A stretch of DNA of 64,000 nucleotides, from positions 1,198,966-1,262,965 of the forward strand of contig NZ_CP013015.1 in NCBI RefSeq assembly GCF_001577525.1, read 5' to 3'. Shown here in pieces: positions 43,986-64,000 of this stretch. The first letter of the stretch is position 1; every line of letters begins with the position of its first letter. Origin of the DNA: Candidatus Desulfofervidus auxilii (lineage in GTDB: Bacteria > Desulfobacterota > Desulfofervidia > Desulfofervidales > Desulfofervidaceae). The notes under the pieces were generated by a model that was not told where the DNA came from, ran no database searches, and saw only the letters and a program-made list of their open reading frames with translations. The position numbers and the translations under genes are program-made.

Positions 43986-44005
43986 AAATTAAACCTCCTT
44001 AAAAA

Positions 44006-44659
44006 TTAATAATCTTTTACATGACGCACAGCGCCAAATTCAGAACCCATATAGGCACGTGTCATCCAGAAGGTCAACATGTGACTAAGGCGGGTAAAAG
44101 GAATAGCTACAAGCATCAATTCTCCACTTAAAATATGTAAAATTAACATTATTTTATAAGGTAAAATCCATTGATAATGAGCTAAAAAACCGGTAATAAA
44201 TGGTAGGGCGGCAATAGCTAAGAGCACATAGTCAGAGGTAAAGGTAACATATTTCACTTCTGGTAAAATTCTTCTCCTCATAAAGAAAAATACACAGGCA
44301 GCAATTACTACCAAACTCATAATATCTGCCAACCAATCTGGAATTGTCCACCAACTAATTTTAAAAGATTCATACCAGAGAATATTATGGGCTAAAAGGA
44401 AAATAGGCGCTATCAATAGGCAAATGTGAAAACTAAAGGAAATAATGGTATGAGCAGGCCTTTGACGCATATTGAGACTGCCAAAAGGAATAATCCAGTG
44501 TAAAATAGAACGAAGTCCGTATTTTAAGCTAAAATAGTCATATACCGTTTGGTCTTTTTTCCAGGAAAGCCAAGAAAGATAGATTATTTTCCCTAAGCTT
44601 CCCACCACAAATACTATAAAAGTAATCCACAAAAGAGGACCTCTTACAAACTCATACAT
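44006..44659 (-). CDS. tmcC: TmcC, membrane cytochrome b subunit
   Basis: 217 residues with five or six transmembrane segments, resembling NarI/DsrM-type cytochrome b. Several membrane His residues could bind heme b (HIILW region, HICLLIAPIFLLAHN, HILSGELMLVAIPFTRLSHM). It anchors TmcA and TmcB and may carry electrons or protons across the membrane. AGGAGG lies before the ATG. Confidence 0.9.
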   Translation of the reverse strand: MYEFVRGPLLWITFIVFVVGSLGKIIYLSWLSWKKDQTVYDYFSLKYGLRSILHWIIPFGSLNMRQRPAHTIISFSFHICLLIAPIFLLAHNILWYESFKISWWTIPDWLADIMSLVVIAACVFFFMRRRILPEVKYVTFTSDYVLLAIAALPFITGFLAHYQWILPYKIMLILHILSGELMLVAIPFTRLSHMLTFWMTRAYMGSEFGAVRHVKDY

Positions 44660-44733
44660 ATCTTCCTCCTAATAACTTACATAAATAAATGTAAGCCTAT
44701 GTTTAACATTTGGTCTATACATTGTCAATAAAA

Positions 44734-46089
44734 TTAACCCAATATTTCACTTACAGAAATAATACGCCGATAATATTTTCCATTTTCAATGCATCTTAAG
44801 AGCATCTTATTTCCATCAGGACTAAAGATTGGTGGCCATATCGCATCAAATTCTTTATTCCAGACCTTTCCATTTATGGCCCAGGTATATTTGTGATTTC
44901 TTTCTACCTTAGTAGCAACATTTTCTCCATCAGGACTGAAGACAGGGTCCCAGACCATATCAAACCACTCAGGCCAGATATAGTCATCTACTACAATACT
45001 CCATACTCGGTAGGGCTTTAATTCTACCACAGGTTCATCTAATTTTACTATAGCCGCAATCTTTTTTCCATTAGGGCTAAAGACAGGCTCTACCACAGCC
45101 CCATTTACGGTAGTATTCCATGGCTTACCATCTACAGCAATAGTCCATTTCCCATTTTTCAGGGCGACTACCGCAGCAATAGAAACTTCATCAGGGCTAA
45201 AAACCTGATGCCAAAGTTGTTTAAATATAGCAGGCCAGATAATTTCTCCATCTATAGCTAAAGACCATTTGCCTTTCTGCACAGGAGCCGTCACTCTGTG
45301 GCTATTTGGCTTAAACTTAGGTCCCCATGTCCAGCTATAAGCCTCTGACCAGGGTTTTCCGTCTATAGCAATAGTATTATGCTCGGGGTCAATTCTTACC
45401 TCTGCTGCTACATGAGCGCTGTCAGAACTAAAATCTAACCCCCAAACATTTTGGAATTTTTTGGGCCAAGGCTTCCCATTGACGGCTACTGTCCAGAGAC
45501 CTTCTTCAAATTTAAAAATATCTCCTTCAGGCATGGCCTCTATCTGCACTGCCGCTGCTGTGTTTCGTCCATCAGGACTGATAACCATATCTCTCATCTC
45601 TAAAAAGTCATTTTCCCAAGGCTGGTCATTTACTACTACCTTGTATTTTCCCTCACTCCTTGCCTTGATTGCAATGCTTTTGCCATCAGCGCTGAATGTA
45701 GTATCCCATACATACTCAAACTTATTTTCCCAAGGATTTCCATCTATAGCCAGTGTCCACTCATCATCTGCACAAACCAAGGCTGTTAAACGATCGTCAG
45801 GGCTAAATTTTACTGACCAGACTTTTTCAAACGTTTCTTCCCAAGTCTCTCCGTTGACACAAATAGTTATTTCTTCATCTTCTGTCTTCACCGCTGCTGC
45901 GATTTTTTCGCCATCATTACTCACTACCAGCTCATGTACCTGAGGAAATTTTGATATCCATTCATTTATATCTGTGATACATTTTTCCTTCGTTTCCCAA
46001 TCCCAGTTCTTTATATTAGGCATAATACTTCGGCATACACAGGAGTGGACAGCAGCACTCACCGCATTCCAGGTTTTTATATCAAACAT
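44734..46089 (-). CDS. tmcD: TmcD, tryptophan-repeat subunit of the Tmc complex
   Basis: 451 residues without signal peptide or membrane helices. About nine copies of a W-[ST]-[LIV]-A-[IV]-[DN]-G-x-x-W unit start near 74, 111, 149, 199, 239, 275, 315, 363 and 401, each followed by a FSPDG-type turn. This indicates a beta-propeller-like fold built of 36-50-residue units. TmcD is the Trp-rich subunit of unknown role in Desulfovibrio. Here it is first in the operon, with AAAGGAGGGG upstream. Confidence 0.85.
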   Translation of the reverse strand: MFDIKTWNAVSAAVHSCVCRSIMPNIKNWDWETKEKCITDINEWISKFPQVHELVVSNDGEKIAAAVKTEDEEITICVNGETWEETFEKVWSVKFSPDDRLTALVCADDEWTLAIDGNPWENKFEYVWDTTFSADGKSIAIKARSEGKYKVVVNDQPWENDFLEMRDMVISPDGRNTAAAVQIEAMPEGDIFKFEEGLWTVAVNGKPWPKKFQNVWGLDFSSDSAHVAAEVRIDPEHNTIAIDGKPWSEAYSWTWGPKFKPNSHRVTAPVQKGKWSLAIDGEIIWPAIFKQLWHQVFSPDEVSIAAVVALKNGKWTIAVDGKPWNTTVNGAVVEPVFSPNGKKIAAIVKLDEPVVELKPYRVWSIVVDDYIWPEWFDMVWDPVFSPDGENVATKVERNHKYTWAINGKVWNKEFDAIWPPIFSPDGNKMLLRCIENGKYYRRIISVSEILG

Positions 46090-46115
46090 AACACCCCCTC
46101 CTTTATTTTTATTCT

Positions 46116-46130
46116 ATTTAAACAAATCTA

Positions 46131-46143
<13 letters not shown>
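46116..46143 (-). promoter_or_regulatory. Probable promoter of tmcDCBA
   Basis: Minus-strand TTGACT (46138-46143) and TTAAAT (46116-46121) with a 16-base spacer, 27 bases before the tmcD ATG. The -35 box overlaps the hairpin at the end of the preceding gene. Confidence 0.5.
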
Positions 46144-52113
<5,970 letters not shown>

Positions 52114-52219
52114 AAAAATATTTTAGCATAGATTTTAGGGAGGAGAAATATATCCAGAATCCTTAATCAGAATGATAAAGCCAGAGGTGGTGTCTCATTT
52201 CAGGTAAGGATTATTAATC

Positions 52220-53341
52220 TCACACCTTGGTTCCATATATCCGATAACGCTTTGTAAGGTGAGCGTGTATCATTTCTGTCATGCGGATGACAGGTATGTT
52301 ATCTTCTAATAACCAAGAAAATTCCAGTCTTTGATAAGAGAACTTCCTCAAGGCCTTCCCTGCTTCAAAAAGAAACAGAGGCACAATTCCTGTATGCTGG
52401 TATTGTCTTTTGATACCCAAAGTTACTGCCCTTATTCTAGTAATTTTTCGGCGATACCATAAGAATTTCAGCCACCCCAAAGAAGACAAGCTCCCATTTA
52501 AATGTTTTAAAACCTGAAAATAATCAGGCAGAAACATTAAAAAACCTACCGGTTCAGTTTTAACTTCTGCTAGCCAGACCAATTCTGGGATTACCAAAGG
52601 TTTCAAACGTTCAGCCATTTTATGAATTTCGGCATCTGTCATAGGCACAAAGCCCCAGTTTCTGGACCAGGCATGATTATAAACTTCTTGAACCCGTTTT
52701 AATTCTTCATCCCAATTTTTTATATTTATAGGTCTTATCTTCACATCTGGATATCTATTTTGTAAACGTATAGCCATCTTCCCTAATCTAGCCATAATGC
52801 CATCTCTGAAAGGTAAAGAAATTTCGTAAGCTAGTAAATCCTTTATTTTTTTAAGACCAGCTTGCTCCAATAATTCGGGATAATAAGGGGGATTATAAGT
52901 CATCATCACACAAGGAGGGTCTTTAAAATCATCTATTAGGATACCGCAAGTCTCATTAGTAGAGGGATTTACCGGGCCATAAATTTGAGCCATTCCTTGG
53001 GTTTTAATCCATGTTTTTGCAGTGTTTAAAAGCGCTTTGACCACAGATAAGTCAGGAATTGTTTCAAAAAAACCAAACCAGCCTATTTTTGCCTGATGAT
53101 AACTATTATAATTTTCATCAATAATACTGACAATTCTCCCCACTACTTGGCCATTTTTATAGGCCAGAAACAATTCCCGCTTAGCATGTTTATAAAAAGG
53201 ATTTTTTTTAGGATTTAATAAGAAATCAGTCTCTTCTAATGAGGGAGGCACCCAATAAGGGTCATTTTGATAAATCTTCCAGGGAAGATGCAAAAATTCT
53301 TGCCATTGGCGATTTGTGACAACTTTTTTTATTTCTATCAT
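52220..53341 (-). CDS. YghO-like GNAT acyltransferase, candidate bacterial ceramide synthase
   Basis: A 373-residue GNAT-fold protein of the YghO type. It opens with the family pattern FLHLPWKIYQNDPYWVPP and has the YGPVNPSTNETCGILID segment near 121-140. In Caulobacter a GNAT protein of this type (bCerS) acylates 3-ketosphinganine. The gene abuts the serine palmitoyltransferase-like gene (shared base at 53341) and follows the epimerase-like gene, matching that three-gene pathway. Assignment as ceramide synthase rests on this context; by sequence alone it is an uncharacterised N-acyltransferase. Confidence 0.7.
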   Translation of the reverse strand: MIEIKKVVTNRQWQEFLHLPWKIYQNDPYWVPPSLEETDFLLNPKKNPFYKHAKRELFLAYKNGQVVGRIVSIIDENYNSYHQAKIGWFGFFETIPDLSVVKALLNTAKTWIKTQGMAQIYGPVNPSTNETCGILIDDFKDPPCVMMTYNPPYYPELLEQAGLKKIKDLLAYEISLPFRDGIMARLGKMAIRLQNRYPDVKIRPINIKNWDEELKRVQEVYNHAWSRNWGFVPMTDAEIHKMAERLKPLVIPELVWLAEVKTEPVGFLMFLPDYFQVLKHLNGSLSSLGWLKFLWYRRKITRIRAVTLGIKRQYQHTGIVPLFLFEAGKALRKFSYQRLEFSWLLEDNIPVIRMTEMIHAHLTKRYRIYGTKV

Positions 53342-54528
53342 TAAATAATGCCTGCCTTGCGTCCTGCTTGAGCAAATGCCTCTAATGCCCTCTCCAATTG
53401 TTTTTGAGTATGGGTAGCCATCACACTGGTGCGCAATAAGGCCCTTCCAGGAGGAACTGCTGGAGGCACAACCGGACTAACAAAAACTCCATTTTCTTCT
53501 AGATAACGACACATTTCAAATGTCTTGTCTGTATTACCAATAATCACAGGCACAATGGGAGTAGTGCTATATCCTGTATCAAAACCCAAAGTTTTCAAAC
53601 CCTCTGCCCAAAAGTGGGCGTTATCCCAGAGCTTTTTTCTTCTCTCTGGTTCTGTTTTTATTATCTTAAATGCCATACTAGCAGCAGCGGCCAAAGGAGG
53701 AGCCAAACTAGCACTAAATAGTAATGCCCTACCTACATGTTTTACATATTCTATTACCTCTCTTTTGGCAGCTATAAAACCTCCAATAGTAGCTAAGGAT
53801 TTGCTAAAAGTGCCCATGATGATATCTGTTTCTTCTTCAAGACCAAAATGTTCTGCTGTCCCTCTACCATTTTTCCCCATTACTCCGATTCCATGAGCAT
53901 CATCTAACATAATCCTGACACCATATTGTTTACTTAAATCAACTATCCCGGGGAGATTGGTCAAATCTCCTTCCATACTAAAAACTCCATCTACAATAAT
54001 TAACTTTGGTTTTTCAGGCTCACATTGTAATAGACGTTCTAAACTCTGCATATCATTATGAGGATAACGTTTGAAACAGCCAGAAGCGAGACGACAGCCA
54101 TCAATGATACTTGCATGGTCAAATTTATCTAAAATAGCTACACAATCTTGGGTCACTAATGCTTGAATACAGCCTAGATTAGTCTGCATACCAGTAGCAA
54201 ATACAATGCTGGCTTCCTTTTTGAAAAATTCGGCAATTTGGGCCTCCAAGTCTTCGTGTAAGTCGATAGTGCCATTCAACAAACGGCTCCCTGCACAACC
54301 TGTTCCATATTTTTTAATGGCCTTAATGGCTGCCTCTTTAACCCTTTGGTCTTCAGTCAGGCCCAAGTAGTTATTTGAACCCAACATAATAAACCTTCTT
54401 CCGTTGATATTTACCTCTGGGCCCTGAATAGAAGAAATAGTGCGGAAATAAAAATATTGTTCTGCTTTTTTTACTGCCTCCAATTGATGGTAAAAATCAA
54501 AACACTTAGAAAAAATATCTGTTTTCAT
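53341..54528 (-). CDS. Serine palmitoyltransferase-like alpha-oxoamine synthase
   Basis: A PLP enzyme of 395 residues in the family of SPT, BioF, KBL and HemA. Motifs: FIMLGSNNYLGL (43-56), FDHASIIDG, LDDAHGIGV (D209, H212) and the PLP lysine K243 in GTFSKSLATIGG. The FSKSLA form and NNYLGL are closer to bacterial SPT than to BioF or KBL, which usually read LGKA. SPT condenses L-serine with an acyl thioester to 3-ketosphinganine. ATG 54528 is preferred over an upstream GTG at 54558; both starts overlap or abut the next gene. It lacks its own acyl-carrier gene nearby. Confidence 0.8.
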   Translation of the reverse strand: MKTDIFSKCFDFYHQLEAVKKAEQYFYFRTISSIQGPEVNINGRRFIMLGSNNYLGLTEDQRVKEAAIKAIKKYGTGCAGSRLLNGTIDLHEDLEAQIAEFFKKEASIVFATGMQTNLGCIQALVTQDCVAILDKFDHASIIDGCRLASGCFKRYPHNDMQSLERLLQCEPEKPKLIIVDGVFSMEGDLTNLPGIVDLSKQYGVRIMLDDAHGIGVMGKNGRGTAEHFGLEEETDIIMGTFSKSLATIGGFIAAKREVIEYVKHVGRALLFSASLAPPLAAAASMAFKIIKTEPERRKKLWDNAHFWAEGLKTLGFDTGYSTTPIVPVIIGNTDKTFEMCRYLEENGVFVSPVVPPAVPPGRALLRTSVMATHTQKQLERALEAFAQAGRKAGII

Positions 54529-54530
54529 AA

Positions 54531-55496
54531 TTATAACCATCCATGTATTTGATACCACCTCAATGTCAAAGTCATGCCTTTGGCCAGACTGTATTGAGGT
54601 TTATAATTCAATAAATCTTGAGTTTCTGAAATATCACAAAACCAAGTTTTTTGAAAGACCTCTTTTAATTTATTTCTAGAAAAAATTAACGGTTTTTTAA
54701 AAAAATGACTATAAAACTCAGCACCCATAGCAAAAAAATAGGTTAAAAGTTTAGGCACTTTTATCACAAAGGGCCTTTTATCCAGAATCTCAGAAATAGT
54801 ATTTATAACCCCTTGCCAGGTATATGCCTTCCCATCAGAGAGAAGGAATACCTTGCCTGAAGGTAGGTCATTTTCCAGAACTTTCATGAGGGCTTGCACT
54901 ACATCTACTACATAACAAAAACTCAAAATACCATCTGGGTTTAAAATAGGGGCAAAACCTTGTTTGATAACCTGGAAATAACTCAGGAGTTCTTTATCTC
55001 TTGGACCATAAATGACTGTTGGTCTAAAGATTATAATTGGTATTACCTCTTTGAATTTTGCCAATGTCTGCTCAGCTAGCCATTTACTTCTGGCATAATG
55101 AGTCTGAGGATAGGGAGGGTCATTTGGAGTAATTACTTCCGTTTTCTGGCCATTTACGGCCAATGTGGAAACAAATACAAAGGCCTTTAGAGGTAACTTT
55201 TGTCTCAATACTGAATTTATTAAGTTTACCGTCCCTAAATAGTTAACTTGATAAAAAAGAGAAGGTCTTATGGCTTTAACCACACCTGCCAAGTGATAAA
55301 TGAAATCTACTTTGGGCAATCTCAAGTCTTTTTTCCGGCAATCACCAACAATTAAATTTACAGGTAGGCCATGTAACCACCTTAAATTGTGTGCGTTTCG
55401 AACCAGACAATAAACTTCATGGCCTTCCTTTAAAAGTCCTTCTACTAAATGACTACCAACAAAACCCGTAGCTCCTGTAACTAAAATTCGTTCCAA
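54531..55496 (-). CDS. NAD(P)-dependent epimerase-like SDR, candidate ceramide reductase
   Basis: A 321-residue extended SDR: TGATGFVGSHLVEGL at the N terminus, HLAGVVKAIRP, VFVSTLAVNG, and YARSKWLAEQTL (YxxxK). Substrate cannot be read directly. Its place as first gene of the set with SPT-like and YghO-like genes parallels the CerR reductase of the Caulobacter ceramide pathway, which reduces the 3-keto group. A sterol or hopanoid dehydrogenase-like role is the main alternative. Confidence 0.75.
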   Translation of the reverse strand: MERILVTGATGFVGSHLVEGLLKEGHEVYCLVRNAHNLRWLHGLPVNLIVGDCRKKDLRLPKVDFIYHLAGVVKAIRPSLFYQVNYLGTVNLINSVLRQKLPLKAFVFVSTLAVNGQKTEVITPNDPPYPQTHYARSKWLAEQTLAKFKEVIPIIIFRPTVIYGPRDKELLSYFQVIKQGFAPILNPDGILSFCYVVDVVQALMKVLENDLPSGKVFLLSDGKAYTWQGVINTISEILDKRPFVIKVPKLLTYFFAMGAEFYSHFFKKPLIFSRNKLKEVFQKTWFCDISETQDLLNYKPQYSLAKGMTLTLRWYQIHGWL

Positions 55497-55585
55497 TAGA
55501 GGCCCTTTTCTTGGAGTTCGCCGATATTAAACACTAGCAGTTTACTTAATTCCATGTCATTTTTCAAGATTAACTCCAAAGTTCA

Positions 55586-55603
55586 TCAGGACTTCGTCAA
55601 AGT
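55586..55603. repeat. Dispersed intergenic word, copy 2 (reverse complement)
   Basis: TCAGGACTTCGTCAAAGT, the exact reverse complement of 18 bases of 39980-39998. Confidence 0.6.
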
Positions 55604-55634
55604 AATTTTAACGGAGATCCAAATGATAAGCGCA

Positions 55635-55653
55635 CCTGTCTGCCGACAGGCAG
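55635..55653. repeat. GC-rich palindrome, copy 3
   Basis: CCTGTC-TGCC-GACAGG hairpin followed by CAGG; shares TGTCTGCCGACAGGCAGG with copy 1 at 5669-5686. Confidence 0.7.
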
Positions 55654-56169
55654 GATGGCTCAATGCAGAATGCAAATTGAAAAATGCAAAATTGCCTTCT
55701 GTTAAATTGGAACGTTAGCACGTTGGAATTGGGAATTAGGAACTGGGAATTGGGAATTTCTATTTTCTATTTTCTGTTTCCCGTTTCCCTTTCCTTCTTT
55801 TCCTTCTTTATGCGCGTTAACACGTTTACACATTGACACGTTTACATGTTAGAAATGGAAACTGGGAATTTCTGTTTTCCGTTTTCTATTTTCTTAACTA
55901 TATTTTGTAGGTTTGACCCCAATTCCACTACATTTGACTATTTCATTCCCTCACTATTTCACTACTCACTGATTTAATGTTTTGGCATTAAGACATTTGG
56001 ATTTCATTTGGTATTTGGATTTTGAAATTTGGATTTTTTATTTTTGTTAAATTACTTATGGCCTGACTTTGACGTACCCCTCCAAGGTTCATAATAGGCT
56101 TTTTCAAAAAATAAAGGTGCAAATTTTAAAAACCTTGTTTTATCCTATAACTTTTCCTATACTTACTTC

Positions 56170-57435
56170 ATGTGGTGGCTTTATAATAGTAGTCTGTGGC
56201 TTGGTCTTTTACTCAGCCTCCCTTTAAGAAGATGGCAACCCAAGATGCAATATTATTTTTATTATCGTTTAGGGCGAACCTTAAGACAAGATTGGTCTGT
56301 TTCCTTGAGAGAAAAAAGACCTGTTTGGTTCCAAGCCCTTTCTGTGGGAGAGGTGTTTTCAGTAGTGCCTTTGGTAAAGGGTTTTTGTCAGCACTGGCCA
56401 GATGTGCCTGTTTTTTTTACTGCCAGCACCATGACTGGTCATAAAATAGCCATTAATCAGTTAAAACACACTGTTGCCGGAATTGGTTATTTCCCTTTGG
56501 ATTTTCCTTCCAATATAAATTATTATCTTAAGATGATTAATCCCAGACTCATTGTTCTTACCGAGACCGATATTTGGCCTAATTTTTTGAAAATCACTAA
56601 GGAAAGAGAAATACCTTGTCTGCTGTTGAATGCACGCATTTCAGAGCGTTCTTATCGACGCTATAAATTGATAAGAAGCTGGTTTTCAGAGACTATAAAT
56701 AGGCTCAGTTTTGTAGGTGTTCAAAGGCCAGAAGATGCTGAACGTTTTTTACACTTGGGTGTTTCTTCAGAAAAAATAAAAATTATGGGCAACCTTAAAT
56801 TCGATAAACCTATTCCCCAAATAAATACTGCCTTAGTTATGCAACTTAAAGCAGAACTGGGTATTTCAAACTATCAACCTGTTTGGATTGCAGGTAGCAC
56901 CCATCAGGGCGAAGACGAAATTATACTTAAGACACATAAGGCCCTGTTGCAATTTTTCCCAGAACTGTGTCTTATTATTGCCCCGAGACATCCTGAGCGT
57001 TTTGATACCGTAACTCAATTGGCCATAGATATGGGTTTTCGCACTAAAAGGCGCACCGAAGAAAAAGAGGGAAAGTGGGAAGTTATAGTCTTGGATACCC
57101 TAGGAGAATTAGCCCGTGTATATGCAGTGGCAGCATTTGTTTTTATTGGTGGGAGTTTGGTGCCTATAGGAGGACACAATCCTTTAGAGGCTGCAATATG
57201 GGGAAAACCAGTTATTTTTGGGCCTTTTATGTTTAACTTTAGTGAAATCGCCAAGCAAATGCTTAAGGAGAAAGCAGCCGTTCAGGTGAAAGAAAAAGAG
57301 ATTTTTAACACTTGCCGTAATTTTTTGGAACAGCCAGAATTGGCTCATAAGATGGGTAAACGGGGAAAAACAATTATTGCAAATAATCAAGGAATAGTAA
57401 AGGAATATTTAAGGATCATAGAAAGGTATTTATGA
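56170..57435 (+). CDS. waaA: 3-deoxy-D-manno-octulosonic acid (Kdo) transferase
   Basis: Transfers Kdo from CMP-Kdo to lipid IVA at the inner membrane. The 421 residues have an N-terminal membrane anchor (MWWLYNSSLWLGLLLSLPL), the GT30 acceptor domain (FQALSVGEVFSV; LTETDIWPNFL with the conserved Glu) and a C-terminal donor domain (GGSLVPIGGHNPLEAAIWG). It leads a seven-gene run of overlapping or abutting genes. Confidence 0.93.
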   Translation: MWWLYNSSLWLGLLLSLPLRRWQPKMQYYFYYRLGRTLRQDWSVSLREKRPVWFQALSVGEVFSVVPLVKGFCQHWPDVPVFFTASTMTGHKIAINQLKHTVAGIGYFPLDFPSNINYYLKMINPRLIVLTETDIWPNFLKITKEREIPCLLLNARISERSYRRYKLIRSWFSETINRLSFVGVQRPEDAERFLHLGVSSEKIKIMGNLKFDKPIPQINTALVMQLKAELGISNYQPVWIAGSTHQGEDEIILKTHKALLQFFPELCLIIAPRHPERFDTVTQLAIDMGFRTKRRTEEKEGKWEVIVLDTLGELARVYAVAAFVFIGGSLVPIGGHNPLEAAIWGKPVIFGPFMFNFSEIAKQMLKEKAAVQVKEKEIFNTCRNFLEQPELAHKMGKRGKTIIANNQGIVKEYLRIIERYL

Positions 57436-58199
57436 ATAGGTTTTGTTTTTTGGGTTGTATTCTTTTTTTTCTGTTAAGAGCTAGTATGGAAGAACAGTGT
57501 ATACATATTGATTATAAAAATACCTCTTTATTTTTAAAAAAGACACATGGTTTAAAGGCCTTAGTGCTTATTCATGGAGGTAAGGCATCCACTGAAAGTG
57601 CTAAGGCAATGTGTGAACGTTATATCCCTGCCTTTCCTGAATATGACTTAATTTCTATAGATTACCGTTTTAGTGGTTTTGGTGGAAAAGAACTAGACGA
57701 TGTAATAAATGGGATTAGGTATGCTCATTCTCTATCCATTCCTGAAGTTTATCTCTTAGGTGAAAGCCATGGGGGCTATCTTGCTTTAATGGCAGGGGCT
57801 AAAGAGAAAATAAGTGGTATTATAGATGCTTATGGAATAACAGATTTGATAGCCATGAAAGAATATACTGAAAAGGAAAATACTCAATTAAACACAGATT
57901 GGCAGGATTATATTCAGGCCACCTTAAAGGAATGTGCAAAAATAGGATTAGAGACTTGTTTAAAAAAACGTTCTCCTTATTTTGGGGCTTATAAAATTGA
58001 AGCACCAGTGTTGCTCTTACATGGCACTGAAGATGAAATTGTGCCTGTGAATCAAAGTGAACGGCTGGTGGAGCAATTTAGGCATACAGGTAAAAAGAAT
58101 TTTAAATTTATTGCCTTGGCTGGCTATTCCCATGGTTTTTCTTTATTGGAAGGGAAGGTGTATCACATAATAAAAGACTTTTTAAATACCATAGATTAA
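57432..58199 (+). CDS. Alpha/beta hydrolase (S9 prolyl-oligopeptidase-like)
   Basis: 255 residues starting with a hydrophobic stretch (about 4-16) that may be a signal anchor. It has the nucleophile elbow GESHGG, a catalytic Asp in LLLHGTEDEIVP and a His in AGYSHGF, so the triad is complete. It sits between waaA and lpxK with an ATGA overlap to waaA, and the lpxK ATG follows its stop directly. Substrate unknown; an esterase acting on lipid A or a precursor is one idea from context only. Confidence 0.8.
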   Translation: MNRFCFLGCILFFLLRASMEEQCIHIDYKNTSLFLKKTHGLKALVLIHGGKASTESAKAMCERYIPAFPEYDLISIDYRFSGFGGKELDDVINGIRYAHSLSIPEVYLLGESHGGYLALMAGAKEKISGIIDAYGITDLIAMKEYTEKENTQLNTDWQDYIQATLKECAKIGLETCLKKRSPYFGAYKIEAPVLLLHGTEDEIVPVNQSERLVEQFRHTGKKNFKFIALAGYSHGFSLLEGKVYHIIKDFLNTID

Positions 58200-58200
58200 A

Positions 58201-59295
58201 ATGGCTTCTTTTTATCCTCTTTTTTATAAAATCACCCATGATGAGCCTGGTTACCATTTTTTAAAGGCAGTTGCCTATGGATTAAGTGGAGGTTATTTCT
58301 TAGGATTAAAGCTTCATCAATGGCTTTATAAAACAGGATGGTTGAAACAAAAATCAGTTCCCTGTCATACTATCAGTGTTGGAAATCTAGTATTGGGAGG
58401 AGTAGGTAAGACTCCTTTTACTATGTTTTTAGCAAGGCTTTTTAAAAATATGGGCAAGAAAGTAATGGTAGTTACTAGAGGATACAAAGGTCAAACAAAT
58501 CACCCCTTAGTTTCTAATGGTTATAAGACCCTCTTAACTCCCTTAGAAGCTGGTGATGAGGCATATCTCCTAGCAAAAAATCTAAAGGGCATTCCCATAA
58601 TAAGAGGGAAAAATCGTTATCAAGCTATTATGTCAGTCTTTAAAGATTTTTTACCAGATATCATTATTTTAGATGATGCCTTTCAGCATTATGCCCTAAA
58701 AAGAGATTTAGATATAGTGCTCCTCAGTGCCCATAGTCCTTTTGGTAAGGGGCATTTATTACCTCGGGGTAGATTCCGTGAGCCTATTTCTGCCTTAAAT
58801 CGTGCCCAGGCAGTGGTCATTACCCATGTAAAAGAAGAAAACCAAGGGAAAAAACTAAAAAAGTTTTTAAAAAAGAGATTTCCAGATTTAACTGTCTTTA
58901 CAGGTGATATAGAGATAGAAAAAATAGTTTCTATCCAAGGCAAAGAAATAGAGCTATCTGCCCTTTCTGATAAATGCCTTTTGGCATTTTGTGGTCTGGC
59001 TGAACCTGTTTATTTTTACCAAACTTGTAAGGATTTAAATTTGGGTATTACTCATTTTTTGAGTTATCCTGACCATCACCGTTATACTAAAAAAGATGTG
59101 TTACATTTGATTGAAATTGCTAAAAAAAATAAAATAGATACCTTGATTACTACTGAAAAAGACATGGTGAAGCTCTTAGCTTTTTCTCCCCTATTTACTG
59201 AAGCTAATTGCTCCATTCTTTATCCTTCTATAACTATGCATTTATATCAAATTGAGGCGTTTATTTCATGGATAAAGGGAAAATTAGGATTTTAG
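58201..59295 (+). CDS. lpxK: Tetraacyldisaccharide 4'-kinase
   Basis: Phosphorylates the lipid A disaccharide at the 4' position. The 364 residues contain an N-terminal membrane-binding helix, a P-loop (GGVGKTPFT at 66-74), the DDAFQH motif near 158-163 (usually DDGFQH), and LLPRGRFREP. It overlaps waaF by 28 bases. Confidence 0.95.
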   Translation: MASFYPLFYKITHDEPGYHFLKAVAYGLSGGYFLGLKLHQWLYKTGWLKQKSVPCHTISVGNLVLGGVGKTPFTMFLARLFKNMGKKVMVVTRGYKGQTNHPLVSNGYKTLLTPLEAGDEAYLLAKNLKGIPIIRGKNRYQAIMSVFKDFLPDIIILDDAFQHYALKRDLDIVLLSAHSPFGKGHLLPRGRFREPISALNRAQAVVITHVKEENQGKKLKKFLKKRFPDLTVFTGDIEIEKIVSIQGKEIELSALSDKCLLAFCGLAEPVYFYQTCKDLNLGITHFLSYPDHHRYTKKDVLHLIEIAKKNKIDTLITTEKDMVKLLAFSPLFTEANCSILYPSITMHLYQIEAFISWIKGKLGF

Positions 59296-60269
59296 TGCGG
59301 GCTCCCAATTGGCTGGGCGATGCTATTATGGGCTTGCCTTTTTTAGAAAATTTACGCTATATCTATCCTCAAGCCCACATTGGGATATGGTGTAAACCTC
59401 ATTTAAGGCCCATCTTTAAGGCCTATTCTAAAATTGACCAGGTCATCATTTATCCTAACAGTATCCTTTCTTTATTTAGGTATTTTTTAAAATTAAGATA
59501 TTTTTCTGCCTGCATCCTGTTACCCAATTCCTTTTCTTCAGCCTTAAGCGCCTTTTTCAGTGGTATTCCCCAGAGAATAGGATATGCCACTGATGGACGT
59601 GATTTATTACTCACCCAGCGTTACCCACCTCCAGAGCAAGAGGCGTTACACCAGATTGATTATTATCTTCATCTTTTAAAATGTATGGGATATGAAGTAA
59701 AACACTGTATTCCCACTTTGAATACATTGCCAGAAGGAGAAGAAGAAGAGAAAAGATTAAGATTAAAATACCAATGGCAAAGAGATTACATTGTTTTTGC
59801 CCCTGGGGCAGCTTACGGATCGGCCAAGTGCTGGCCTGCTTTCTATTTTGCCAAATTAGCCAAAGAAATTAAAAAAACAGCCATAGAGGTATTAATATTA
59901 GGTAGTCAAAAAGATAAACCTATGGCAAAAAAAATCTTGGGATATTCAAAGGATAAAAAGGGGATTTATGACTTAACAGGTCTTACTTCCTTAGCTGGGG
60001 CAATGAGTATTATTAAAAAATCCATGTTAGTAATTAGCAATGATTCAGGACTTATGCACCTGACAGCCGCTTTAAAACATCCTCAGATTGCCATCTTTGG
60101 ACCCACAAATCCCAAGAGGACAGCTCCTTATGGGAAGACTACAAAAATTATCTATCACCAAGTAGCCTGTGCTCCATGCAAATATCGTCAGTGTCCTAAA
60201 GACCACATTTGTATGCACCAGATTAAAGTTGAAGAAGTATTCAATGCAGTCCAGGATTTACTTTCTTGA
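59268..60269 (+). CDS. waaF: ADP-heptose:LPS heptosyltransferase (WaaF type)
   Basis: A 333-residue GT9 enzyme building the inner LPS core. Motifs: RAPNWLGDAIMGLPFL at the N terminus, FAPGAAYGSAKCWP in the centre, and SNDSGLMHLTAAL and FGPTNPKRTAPYG in the donor site. It overlaps both neighbours. WaaF versus WaaC is judged on the PNWLGDA start and is not absolute. Confidence 0.9.
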   Translation: MDKGKIRILVRAPNWLGDAIMGLPFLENLRYIYPQAHIGIWCKPHLRPIFKAYSKIDQVIIYPNSILSLFRYFLKLRYFSACILLPNSFSSALSAFFSGIPQRIGYATDGRDLLLTQRYPPPEQEALHQIDYYLHLLKCMGYEVKHCIPTLNTLPEGEEEEKRLRLKYQWQRDYIVFAPGAAYGSAKCWPAFYFAKLAKEIKKTAIEVLILGSQKDKPMAKKILGYSKDKKGIYDLTGLTSLAGAMSIIKKSMLVISNDSGLMHLTAALKHPQIAIFGPTNPKRTAPYGKTTKIIYHQVACAPCKYRQCPKDHICMHQIKVEEVFNAVQDLLS

Positions 60270-60298
60270 CAAGTTTGAAAAATACTTATAATTTCCCC

Positions 60299-60811
60299 AT
60301 GATGTATGGTTATATTCAGATTTATACAGGTAATGGTAAGGGAAAAACCACTGCTGCCCTGGGGCTTGCCCTCCGTGCTGCAGGGGCAGGATTAAAGGTA
60401 TTCATCGGTCAATTTTTAAAAAAACAAAGTAGTGAACAGGAAGCATTAAAGCGATTTGAAGACTTAATTAAAATAGAAACATACGGAGGACCAAAGCTTA
60501 TAAAAACTCCCAGTGTTGAAGATAAAAAAAGGGCTGAAAAAGGATTCAAGGTCTGTATGGATAACATAAATTCTGGGAAATATGATGTAGTCATTTTAGA
60601 TGAAATAAATGTAGCCATTCATTTAGGTGTTTTAAATGTTGAACAAGTGGTGGCTTTTCTTAAAAAAAGACTCAAAGGTGTGGAAATAATTTTAACGGGT
60701 CGTTATGCCCCTAAAGAGTTGATAGAAATAGCTGATTTGGTTACAGAAATGCGTGAGGTAAAACATTATTATCATAAGGGAATAAAGGCCAGAAAAGGAA
60801 TTGAGTTTTAA
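60299..60811 (+). CDS. cobO: Cob(I)alamin adenosyltransferase
   Basis: CobO/BtuR-type enzyme that adenosylates corrinoids using ATP. About 170 residues: P-loop TGNGKGKTTAALG, LDEINVAIHLGVL, and ILTGRYAPKELIEIADLVTEM near the C terminus. The frame is open from TTG 60266, which overlaps the waaF stop, but ATG 60299 (or 60302) fits family length. It is isolated from cobalamin genes, inside a cell-envelope and purine-salvage run. Confidence 0.92.
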   Translation: MMYGYIQIYTGNGKGKTTAALGLALRAAGAGLKVFIGQFLKKQSSEQEALKRFEDLIKIETYGGPKLIKTPSVEDKKRAEKGFKVCMDNINSGKYDVVILDEINVAIHLGVLNVEQVVAFLKKRLKGVEIILTGRYAPKELIEIADLVTEMREVKHYYHKGIKARKGIEF

Positions 60812-61635
60812 TGGAATATAAGGCAAAAGTAGAAAAGGCCGTCCGGTTTATTCAAGGAAAAACAGATTTTAAACCTCAGATAGCTATAATTTTGGGAACA
60901 GGCCTAGGTGGTATAGCTAATGTTATTTCCCCTCATATTATTATCCCTTATAGGGAAATTCCTTATTTTCCTGTTTCTACTGCTCCAAGTCACCAAGGAC
61001 AGATTATTTTGGGCACTCTGGAAGGCAAAAATATCATGGCCTTTCAAGGACGGGTGCATTATTATGAAGGCTATTCTTTGCAAGAAGTAAGTTTTTCCAC
61101 TAGGGTGGCGGCCTTAATAGGCACAAAAATCCTGATTATTTCCAATGCCGCTGGTGGATTAAACCCCCTTTTTAGGGAAGCAGATTTAATGGCTATTGTG
61201 GACCACATAAATCTAATGGGTGACAATCCCTTACGTGGTCAAAATATAGATGAATGGGGAGTGCGTTTCCCGGATATGGTAGAGCCCTATGATAAAAAAT
61301 TAATTGATTTATTGGAAAAGGTGGCTTTAAAAGAAAGGATAAAATTGCAAAAGGGTGTTTATGTAGCCGTGGCTGGTCCGAGTTTAGAGACCGCGGCTGA
61401 AACTCGTTTTTTGAGATTGATAGGGGCAGATGCCGTAGGAATGTCTACTGTTCCAGAAGTGATTGCCGCTATTCATCATGGTTTGCGGGTTCTGGCCATT
61501 TCAGTTATTACCAATGTCAATCTTCCAGACAATTATCAACCTGCTCCCATAGAAAAGGTGGTTGCTACTGCCCAAAAGGCAGAGACCAAATTAACCAAGC
61601 TTATTTGTTGTTTTATTAAATCATTAGAAATATAA
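60811..61635 (+). CDS. Purine-nucleoside phosphorylase
   Basis: A 274-residue trimeric-type PNP: ILGTGLGGIANVI, PSHQGQIILGTLEGK, FQGRVHYYEGY, SNAAGGLNP, and GPSLETAAETRFLRLIGADAVGMSTVPE. It cleaves purine nucleosides with phosphate. It overlaps cobO by one base (TAATG), and mtaD starts directly after its stop. Whether it prefers guanosine/inosine or methylthioadenosine is not certain; the VGMSTVPE form points to guanosine/inosine. Confidence 0.93.
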   Translation: MEYKAKVEKAVRFIQGKTDFKPQIAIILGTGLGGIANVISPHIIIPYREIPYFPVSTAPSHQGQIILGTLEGKNIMAFQGRVHYYEGYSLQEVSFSTRVAALIGTKILIISNAAGGLNPLFREADLMAIVDHINLMGDNPLRGQNIDEWGVRFPDMVEPYDKKLIDLLEKVALKERIKLQKGVYVAVAGPSLETAAETRFLRLIGADAVGMSTVPEVIAAIHHGLRVLAISVITNVNLPDNYQPAPIEKVVATAQKAETKLTKLICCFIKSLEI

Positions 61636-62940
61636 ATGGAAAATTTAGATATTCTTGTTTCTGCTGAGTTTTTATTGACCTTAGAAGATGAAAATATATT
61701 GACAGATACAGCCGTGGGCATCAAAGGAGACACCATCGTTTCTGTAGGAAAAACGCAAAAACTTTTAGACCAATTTTTTCCTAAAAATCATTTCCATTAT
61801 GAACATGGTTTGATTATGCCTGGTTTGATAAATGCCCATACCCACATCCCCATGACTCTATTTAGAGGATTGGCAGACGATTTACCCTTAATGACCTGGC
61901 TCAATAAATATATCTTTCCTTTGGAGAAAAAGCTCAAACCAGAATGGGTTTATTGGGGAGCACTTTTGGGTTGTGCTGAACTCATTATGTCAGGCACTAC
62001 CTGTTTTTGTGACATGTATCTTTTTGCTGATGAAGTGGCCAAGGCCGCAGATAGGGCAGGATTGAGAGCAGTGGTAGGGGAGGTGCTCTATGATTTTCCC
62101 TCTCCTAATTATGGACCTATTGAAAATGGTTTTATTTATACAGAAACGCTTATCCAAAAATGGTCAAATCATCCCCTTATTAGTATTGCTGTAGAACCCC
62201 ATGCTGTCTATACTTGTAGTCCTGAGTTACTTAAACAGGCCAAGAAAATAAGTGAAAAATACAATGTTCCTTATGTTATCCATCTGGCAGAGACTAAAAC
62301 AGAAGTAGAAAAAACTAAAGAAAAATTTTATTGCACCCCTCCCCAACATTTAGCTAATCTTGGTATTTTAGATGAAACAGTAATTGCTGACCATTGTGTT
62401 TGGCTCACTGACTTAGATATAGAACTGATTGAAAAACATCAAGTTAAAGTGGTTCACAATCCCGAGAGCAATCTAAAATTGGCCTCTGGCATTGCCCCTA
62501 TTCCTACTCTTTTATCTCAGGACATTACTGTAAGTTTAGGCACTGACGGTCCTGCTAGTAACAATGACTTAGATATGTTCTTAGAGATGGATACTGCAGC
62601 CAAGATGCACAAATTAAAACAGGAAAATCCTACCTTGATGCCTGCCTGGCAGGTATTGGCTATGGCCACAAAACAAGGGGCTAAGACCTTGGGAATGGGT
62701 GAAAAGATTGGGACTATAACTCCTGGTAAAAAAGCAGATTTGATTGTGTTAGACTTTAATCAGCCTCATCTTATACCTGTGTATAATCCTGTTTCTCATC
62801 TTGTGTATACTGCTAGCGGGAAGGATGTTTTGACCACTATTGTAAATGGAAAAGTGCTAATGGAAAACCGAAAAATACAGAATTTAGACTTAGAAGAAAT
62901 TTATGGTCAGATAAAAGCCATTACTAGAGAATTTGGTTAA
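61636..62940 (+). CDS. mtaD: 5'-methylthioadenosine / S-adenosylhomocysteine deaminase
   Basis: A 434-residue amidohydrolase. Metal ligands H68 and H70 (NAHTHIPM), H216 (IHLAET), a later His (ADHCVWL) and the catalytic Asp in LGTDGPASNNDLDM are visible. It deaminates MTA or SAH to the inosine forms. With the adjacent nucleoside phosphorylase it would give an alternative purine/methionine salvage route (inference). The TAAATG junction means no gap from the upstream gene. Confidence 0.93.
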   Translation: MENLDILVSAEFLLTLEDENILTDTAVGIKGDTIVSVGKTQKLLDQFFPKNHFHYEHGLIMPGLINAHTHIPMTLFRGLADDLPLMTWLNKYIFPLEKKLKPEWVYWGALLGCAELIMSGTTCFCDMYLFADEVAKAADRAGLRAVVGEVLYDFPSPNYGPIENGFIYTETLIQKWSNHPLISIAVEPHAVYTCSPELLKQAKKISEKYNVPYVIHLAETKTEVEKTKEKFYCTPPQHLANLGILDETVIADHCVWLTDLDIELIEKHQVKVVHNPESNLKLASGIAPIPTLLSQDITVSLGTDGPASNNDLDMFLEMDTAAKMHKLKQENPTLMPAWQVLAMATKQGAKTLGMGEKIGTITPGKKADLIVLDFNQPHLIPVYNPVSHLVYTASGKDVLTTIVNGKVLMENRKIQNLDLEEIYGQIKAITREFG

Positions 62941-63017
62941 AAGGCAGAAGTGAAGTTGCCTCAAACTCCCACACTCAGGAACAGCTAAATAGTTGAAAAT
63001 TTGGGAAATAATTCAGC

Positions 63018-63052
63018 TTGACAGGTTAACAAAAATTAACTAAATGGTTAAC
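63018..63052 (+). promoter_or_regulatory. birA promoter region with GTTAAC repeats (possible BirA operator)
   Basis: A -35 element TTGACA lies at 63018-63023. Two GTTAAC hexamers (63025-63030, 63047-63052) are 16 bases apart, with a third TTAAC at 63036-63040. The second hexamer ends one base before the birA ATG. Spacing and hexamer resemble described BirA operators of the GTTAACC-N-GGTTAAC type. Confidence 0.5.
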
Positions 63053-63053
63053 T

Positions 63054-63974
63054 ATGCGAAAAAGGATTTTAGGTTTACTTTATCAAGAAAAGGATTTTGT
63101 CTCTGGTGAGGCCTTGAGCAAAAGACTTGGTATCTCCAGGGTGGGGGTGTGGAAGCATATTCAGGTTCTACGTAAAGAGGGGTATGTGATAGAGGCTTCA
63201 AATAAGGGATATCGGTTAATATCTGCACCTGATTTGCTCTTGCCAGAGGAATTGGCTGAGCTGGACAAAAAAGTCTATTATTTTGAGGAAGTTTCTTCCA
63301 CTATGGATGTGGCCAGAAAGTTGGCTCAAAAGGGAGAAGAAGCCATAGTTATTGCTGAAACTCAAACAAAAGGGAAAGGGCGTCGGGGCAGGTACTGGCA
63401 TTCAGGCAGAGGTGGCATTTATTTTTCTTTGATTTTAAAGCCAACAATAAATCCATCTCAGGCCCATTTGGTCAATTTACTTGCTGGGGTGGCTGTGGCA
63501 ATTACCATAAGGAAGTTATTTAACATAAACGCTACGCTTAAATGGCCAAATGATGTGCTTATCAATGAAAAAAAAGTTTGTGGCATCCTAGCTGAAATGG
63601 AAGCTGAGGCAGATATAGTAAGGTTTATTATTTTAGGTATTGGTATAAATGTAAATAACAACATCTCTGATAGGATAAAAAGTGCTATTTCTTTGAGAGA
63701 AATCCTAGGAAAAGAAGTTTCTAAAAAGAAGCTATTTTTGCCCCTTATAAAGGAAATAGAAAAATTACAGTCCTTTTTAAACCAACCTAAGGTGCTTGTT
63801 AATAGATGGAAACGGCTTTCTTCTACACTTGGGCGTCATGTAAGGGTTATTATTCAAAATAAAATATTAGAAGGAGAGGCTATAGATATTGATAATGATG
63901 GTGCATTAATTTTAAAAACTAGTGATGAAGGTTTAAAAAGAGTGGTTGCTGGTGATTGCATACACTTACGTTAA
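63054..63974 (+). CDS. birA: BirA: biotin-protein ligase and biotin repressor
   Basis: 306 residues. An N-terminal winged helix-turn-helix (1-58, LSKRLGISRVGVWKHIQVLR) makes it a likely DNA-binding repressor. The ligase domain shows SSTMDVARKLA, KGKGRRGRYW (107-115), KWPNDVL (163-169) and a C-terminal SH3-like cap. It biotinylates carboxylase carrier proteins. No Shine-Dalgarno sequence is seen before the ATG, which lies right behind the promoter-like elements. Confidence 0.95.
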   Translation: MRKRILGLLYQEKDFVSGEALSKRLGISRVGVWKHIQVLRKEGYVIEASNKGYRLISAPDLLLPEELAELDKKVYYFEEVSSTMDVARKLAQKGEEAIVIAETQTKGKGRRGRYWHSGRGGIYFSLILKPTINPSQAHLVNLLAGVAVAITIRKLFNINATLKWPNDVLINEKKVCGILAEMEAEADIVRFIILGIGINVNNNISDRIKSAISLREILGKEVSKKKLFLPLIKEIEKLQSFLNQPKVLVNRWKRLSSTLGRHVRVIIQNKILEGEAIDIDNDGALILKTSDEGLKRVVAGDCIHLR

Positions 63975-64000
63975 AACATTTTTTATAATTTTATGGTTAA

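Follow-up and report, generated by a model that had tools for sequence, protein, structure and literature searches.

In Caulobacter crescentus, ceramide formation involves the three enzymes Spt, bCerS and CerR (PMC11087976, PMC11324152). In Rhodobacteria, the ceramide synthase gene cerS is said always to occupy a separate operon, with aasR and acpR near spt in most cases (PMC11324152, PMC9386255). Spt-like proteins of a 'clade B' occur in metagenome-assembled genomes (MAGs) from the Black Sea, including members of Desulfobacterota, often with CerR and bCerS nearby (Ding et al. 2024, PMC11334938), and an Escherichia coli plasmid (NZ_MG591698, L095) carries a sphingolipid cluster with YghO, a CerR-like homologue and an Spt. 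Here, we analyzed a 64,000-nucleotide stretch (hereafter the window) of the genome of Candidatus Desulfofervidus auxilii (HotSeep-1), a Desulfobacterota member and partner of thermophilic methane-oxidizing archaea (PMC10553843). The genes cerR, spt and bCerS are clustered in it, and by their sequences they very probably constitute one operon that makes the backbone of ceramide-type sphingolipids.

The host genome, from a member of Ca. Desulfofervidaceae, is one closed contig of 2,540,211 bases and is 99.97% complete; statements on the presence or absence of genes across whole genomes are based on profile searches. The locus consists of three intact open reading frames (ORFs) on the minus strand at window positions 52220-55496, read in the order cerR, spt, bCerS, with the following features.

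54531..55496, minus strand: cerR, an extended short-chain dehydrogenase (SDR), predicted ceramide / 3-ketosphinganine reductase; TTG start, 321 aa; Pfam Epimerase E 1e-32, N-terminal nucleotide-binding motif GATGFVG, YxxxK motif (HYARSK).
53341..54528, minus strand: spt, a serine palmitoyltransferase (SPT)-type alpha-oxoamine synthase, a pyridoxal 5'-phosphate (PLP) enzyme of the BioF/Kbl/SPT family; Aminotran_1_2 E 1e-59, motif GTFSKSLA, and the PDB matches, tree, approximately unbiased (AU) test and active-site comparison given below.
53800..53802, minus strand: codon of the PLP-binding lysine within GTFSKS, equivalent to Lys244 of Sphingobacterium multivorum SPT by alignment to 8GUH.
53710..53712, minus strand: codon of the diagnostic alanine, equivalent to Ala274 of S. 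multivorum SPT in the active-site comparison.
52220..53341, minus strand: bCerS, a YghO-like tandem GNAT N-acyltransferase, predicted ceramide synthase, 373 aa; Acetyltransf_1 E 1e-5, above its cut-off, homologues adjoining spt in several phyla, a YghO match and a fold model.

The spt ORF is listed from an upstream GTG at 54558 (53341-54558). We prefer the ATG at 54528, which leaves a 2-nt gap to the end of cerR at 54531. The spt stop codon and the bCerS ATG have one base in common at 53341 (TAATG), a 1-nt overlap. The initial annotation had placed an SDR, an SPT-like PLP enzyme with an FSKSLA motif and a GNAT protein on one strand at these positions, and the intact ORFs bear this out. Four other genomes of the family have these genes in an identical order, so the grouping is far beyond chance. 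Promoter and terminator scans around the operon returned chance-level signals only.

As in Caulobacter, the set comprises an Spt with the catalytic residues, a YghO-type GNAT bCerS and a CerR that is an NAD(P)-binding extended SDR; this comparison is indirect and runs through YghO, the E. coli cluster and the crystallized SPTs. Unlike in Rhodobacteria, the three genes form one overlapping operon, and the acpR and aasR genes that lie near spt in the rhodobacterial five-gene cluster do not adjoin it. The window Spt also lies outside the Rhodobacteria-type Spt group in our tree. The E. coli plasmid cluster differs: its Spt is of the Rhodobacteria type, and it also encodes a fatty acyl-AMP ligase and an acyl carrier protein. 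In contrast to the Black Sea water-column MAGs, the genome analyzed here is closed, belongs to the thermophilic Desulfofervidales and offers an internal control in the absence of the biotin pathway. With respect to E. coli, the full sphingolipid cluster of the plasmid record adjoins lptG/lptF genes, while in strain K-12 (L138:1044-3341) yghO is kept beside an IS5 copy and its surroundings have no annotated spt cluster.

The best PDB matches of the PLP enzyme were the S. multivorum SPT entries 3A2B and 8GUH (E 4e-118, 398 bits), followed by Thermus BioF/Kbl (288-290 bits), the S. paucimobilis SPT (275 bits) and cysteate acyltransferase (CFAT, 253 bits). The leading match is thus about 100 bits above any BioF/Kbl entry. 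Profile searches gave 522 bits with the SPT model versus 394 bits with the bioF model. In a 58-row maximum-likelihood tree, a 29-row clade (bootstrap/SH-aLRT 100/98) united the window Spt with both crystallized SPTs and with all enzymes encoded adjacent to bCerS/CerR. The rows included both crystallized SPT types (8GUH, 2W8T), E. coli BioF and Kbl, Thermus BioF/Kbl, a Pseudalkalibacillus BioF from a bio operon, bio-type enzymes of relatives, and enzymes encoded beside bCerS or CerR genes. The bootstrap was not fully settled and there were long branches among the BioF rows. A constraint joining the window family to the BioF/Kbl rows lowered the log-likelihood by 45 and was rejected (p-AU 0.0004). 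The phylogeny against SPT, BioF and KBL that the initial annotation had proposed as a check therefore groups the enzyme with known SPTs, apart from BioF/Kbl, and judged by its sequence the PLP enzyme is an SPT outside BioF.

The active site supports this placement. S. multivorum SPT (PMC10196870), whose numbering we use, is the closest solved relative and is identical to the window Spt at nearly all active-site positions compared. The two enzymes share Asn52, Ala79, Gly80, Ser81, His138, Ser185, Asp210, Ala212, His213, Thr241, Ser243, Lys244, Ala274 and Arg367, among them all the residues by which we judged SPT membership (His138, Asp210, His213, Lys244, Asn52, Arg367 and Ala274). From S. multivorum to the window enzyme, Met271 changes to Leu, Ser111 to Ala, Phe114 to Met and Phe83 to Leu. 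Position 274 told the enzyme groups apart within this sample: it is Ala in every SPT-clade row, Thr in the BioF-type rows and Asn in the two Kbl-type rows, and sulfonolipid synthases (SulA) have Lys281 at the position where SPT has Ala (PMC9304779).

For bCerS, the part of the plasmid YghO contained in the E. coli locus matched with 38% identity over 172 aa (E 1e-38), and PDB sequences gave no match even at E 1. A model built from ten homologues (mean pLDDT 85, pTM 0.83) retrieved tandem GNAT enzymes at the top of a fold search (7q3a, Z 23.2, 301 residues, root-mean-square deviation 3.5) and N-myristoyltransferases as a weaker match (Z about 15). N-myristoyltransferases transfer long acyl chains onto nitrogen. 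YghO homology and the GNAT fold together place the protein in the bCerS/YghO family. From the model, a long-acyl N-acyltransferase is a sensible reading, although a shared fold shows no function. Homologues adjoin spt in Calditrichota, Bacteroidota, Rubrobacter and other Desulfobacterota.

CerR combines the nucleotide-binding motif and YxxxK of an extended SDR with homology to known CerR-position genes. Identity is 55-65% with its counterpart opening the operon elsewhere in the order and 28-40% with CerR-position genes of other lineages (28-34%, E 5e-36 or better, for E. coli, Rubrobacter, Aureispira and Calditrichia). Its homologues adjoin Spt in Calditrichota, Bacteroidota and Rubrobacter, while the PDB search returned distant epimerases and oxidoreductases only. 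With a Rossmann motif that already starts in its first 10 residues, the protein has no obvious leader; no signal prediction was made. Caulobacter CerR is located in the periplasm (PMC11087976), and the leaderless look of the window protein does not appear to contradict this.

Conservation of the gene set was assessed in five genomes of the order (G001-G005; G002 and G005 incomplete), and all five keep it. The four that belong to the same family (G001-G004) have the three genes in the same order, with 76-82% identity for SPT and 63-69% for bCerS. In G005 the set is split, with spt and cerR together and bCerS homologues on other contigs. Tree, active site, homologues and gene order thus support the reading of the initial annotation, that these clustered homologues of Spt, CerR and bCerS are the bacterial ceramide-backbone set.

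Homologous systems suggest how the pathway would work with respect to activity, amino acid, acyl donor, step order, compartment and headgroup. Spt, with PLP on Lys243, would make a 3-keto long-chain base by condensing a long-chain acyl thioester with an amino acid, most likely L-serine and possibly L-alanine. The tandem GNAT enzyme bCerS would N-acylate this base, and CerR would use NAD(P)H to reduce the 3-keto group. If Caulobacter is a guide, acylation would precede reduction and the product would reach the outer membrane, beside lipopolysaccharide (LPS).

The choice of amino acid leads to the alternative that fares best. If Spt used L-alanine, the same operon could yield 1-deoxyceramides, through a headless long-chain base that is then N-acylated and reduced. 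We regard this as possible but doubtful. In the euxinic waters of the Black Sea, co-abundance has tied 1-deoxyceramides and sulfono-1-deoxyceramides to Desulfobacterota and/or Bacteroidota (Ding et al. 2024, PMC11334938), and S. multivorum SPT accepts alanine, albeit weakly (PMC10196870). The serine-contacting Asn52 is common to Spt and to BioF, which uses alanine, so the sequence is compatible with this alternative. However, positions 79-81 and 274 match the serine-preferring S. multivorum SPT and not typical BioF rows, and on this comparison serine is favored over alanine as the substrate.

Two other identities for the PLP enzyme lie much further off. A sulfonolipid synthase (SulA/CFAT) using cysteate, with the operon leading to capnine-type lipids, would have the same fold and the same types of partner enzyme, and a CFAT structure is among the PDB matches (28eh, E 3e-74). 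This is very unlikely, as the window Spt has Ala where SulA has Lys281 (PMC9304779) and scores 398 bits with S. multivorum SPT against 253 bits with CFAT. It is also highly improbable that the enzyme is the glycine C-acetyltransferase (Kbl) of threonine breakdown, or a secondary-metabolite enzyme, with unrelated neighbors. Kbl and polyketide synthase (PKS)-linked oxoamine synthases do belong to the same superfamily, but the three-gene order with bCerS and CerR is conserved across genera, the Kbl rows fall elsewhere in the tree with Asn at position 274, and no tdh or PKS genes were seen in the neighborhood. Nor is a role as 5-aminolevulinate synthase needed, because glutamyl-tRNA reductase is present and covers tetrapyrrole synthesis.

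Telling Spt from BioF is a recurrent annotation problem, and genomes with and without the biotin pathway offer a clean sequence control. In the host genome, BioB is absent (best 35 bits against a cut-off of 225), BioD is absent, and no BioA exceeds its cut-off (best 271 versus 405 bits). Matches at the 271-bit level are found in nearly every relative also, beside its true BioA, and the one in the host genome is probably ArgD-like. The window Spt is the only alpha-oxoamine synthase of the genome. G002, G004 and G005 resemble the host in their biotin genes, whereas G001 and G003, from the same family, encode BioA, BioB, BioD and a separate true BioF (485-488 bits) together with the cerR-spt-bCerS operon; the ceramide operon is thus independent of biotin synthesis. 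The genome has a biotin-protein ligase gene, birA (window 63054-63974), but none of BioA, BioB, BioD and BioF. This points to a probable biotin auxotroph, in contrast to the two genomes of its family that keep the full pathway.

Identity with BioF (8-amino-7-oxononanoate synthase), for which the shared superfamily, the lack of a second alpha-oxoamine synthase and birA in the window might speak, is the least credible of all and is refuted at the sequence level: the enzyme scores 394 bits against a BioF cut-off of 426, falls outside BioF by phylogeny (p-AU 0.0004), has Ala and not Thr at position 274, and sits in a genome without BioA, BioB and BioD, while BioF is a separate protein in the relatives that have a bio operon. 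The initial annotation had said that its proposal would fall if the enzyme lay within BioF and belonged to the genome's only biotin pathway; it lies outside BioF, and there is no biotin pathway.

Several observations weigh against assigning the operon to ceramide synthesis. We found no lipid or enzyme data for the organism. In Guaymas surface sediments with anaerobic oxidation of methane, a ceramide belonged to a lipid set with delta-13C values of -11 to -44 per mil, and so was not methane-derived (PMC12322946). The window Spt scores under all three NCBIfam SPT equivalog cut-offs (NF047600, 522 < 640; NF047599, 390 < 500; NF047603, 318 < 670) and is not filed in these equivalogs on sequence; the NF047600 cut-off is passed by none of the 394 genomes of the phylum. 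The CerR assignment draws on position and similarity within the broad extended SDR family. Lastly, the operon has no gene for a specialized acyl carrier protein or acyl-ACP synthetase beside it: window positions 44000-64000 contain no carrier-protein or AMP-ligase ORF and no PF00550 or PF00501 match. Elsewhere, the host genome has two carrier-protein matches above the Pfam cut-off and eight AMP-ligase matches, three of the latter in a tandem array with LolA-like and DUF1302 genes. The search for an acyl carrier protein and BioA/BioD/BioB suggested by the initial annotation thus locates carrier proteins away from the operon and none beside it, and finds BioA, BioD and BioB absent.

With respect to LPS, a functional link had been read from the neighboring genes waaA, lpxK and waaF. 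Their identities were confirmed by profile, with lpxK and waaF above the cut-offs and waaA matching five KdtA models below their cut-offs. These genes lie on the opposite strand to the operon, and the operon flanks differ each time in G001-G004, so the LPS neighbors here are coincidental, and we rejected the link. Lipid A synthesis is encoded (LpxC, 370 bits; LpxK, WaaA and WaaF), which makes a mixed LPS/sphingolipid outer membrane plausible.

Across the phylum, 42 of the 394 sampled genomes (about 11%) have an enzyme that scores at least 497 bits with NF047600, and the next score, after a gap, is 445 bits; the 42 is a score-based count, and the tree covers only part of these enzymes. Scores of about 415-445 bits form a group that comes mostly from one family, one member of which the tree puts in the SPT clade, and the highest-scoring tree-placed BioF reaches 422 bits. 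Ding et al. 2024 (PMC11334938) reported Spt-like proteins from 38 phyla, Desulfobacterota being prominent among them. The expectation that such a pathway is not widely described in this lineage holds for the order, since we found no earlier report linking Desulfofervid lineages with sphingolipids in the literature searched, but not for Desulfobacterota, where Spt-like proteins were already described in 2024 (PMC11334938). The pathway is known from other bacteria, including the same phylum, and Desulfofervidales would be a new addition, a thermophilic sulfate-reducing order that, judging from its genes, joins the lineages able to make sphingolipids.

Hot marine sediments at Milos (40-80 °C) contain bacterial phosphosphingolipids whose producers are unknown (PMC5572230), which makes a role in heat adaptation attractive. 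We suggest, as a speculation that is rather unlikely to hold, that Ca. Desulfofervidus, as bacterial partner of thermophilic methane- and alkane-oxidizing archaea, adapts to heat by placing (1-deoxy)ceramide lipids in its outer membrane, alongside LPS. If this is true, Ca. Desulfofervidus and its order would be one source of bacterial sphingolipids in marine sediments at 40-80 °C, and (1-deoxy)ceramides could be used as a biomarker for methane/alkane syntrophy. The locus provides a testable candidate source for the sphingolipids of such sediments (PMC5572230).

Related genes were also observed outside the operon. A second bCerS paralogue in the host genome (L076:7903-9012, C1) is 44% identical to the window bCerS. 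Its orthologues in two relatives (L077:9709-10812 and L084:1-1036) lie in clusters that also encode long-chain acyl-CoA synthetases and a DUF1302-like protein, putatively of the outer membrane; one of these clusters adds a LolA-like protein, an aldehyde dehydrogenase and an aldolase-SCP2 protein. The sister of the paralogue in another family (G009) adjoins spt. Another host cluster (L135:4672-12802; C1:1941.7-1949.8 kb), with three tandem acyl-CoA synthetases, a DUF1302 protein and two LolA-like proteins, resembles these clusters of the relatives but has no bCerS, and is possibly a locus for lipid uptake, activation or export. Elsewhere in the phylum, G013 (L109:2120-4633) carries a Rhodobacteria-type Spt with an adjoining CerR-like gene, which groups with the E. 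coli cluster and suggests that the phylum acquired a second type of Spt.

Upstream of the operon, a 670-base non-coding stretch (window 55500-56170) between the divergent cerR and waaA contains many short near-repeats, such as GGGAATTGGGAATT. On inspection, they resemble ordinary low-complexity intergenic sequence. Downstream, a gene for a 1657-aa DUF6079/BrxC-like ATPase (window 46152-51125) overlaps one for a TPR protein (51109-52113), and the pair (46152-52113) is possibly a remnant or variant of a BREX-like system. Further along, window positions 44734-46089 encode the TmcD subunit (521 bits against a cut-off of 440) of Tmc, a transmembrane electron-transfer complex found in sulfate reducers.

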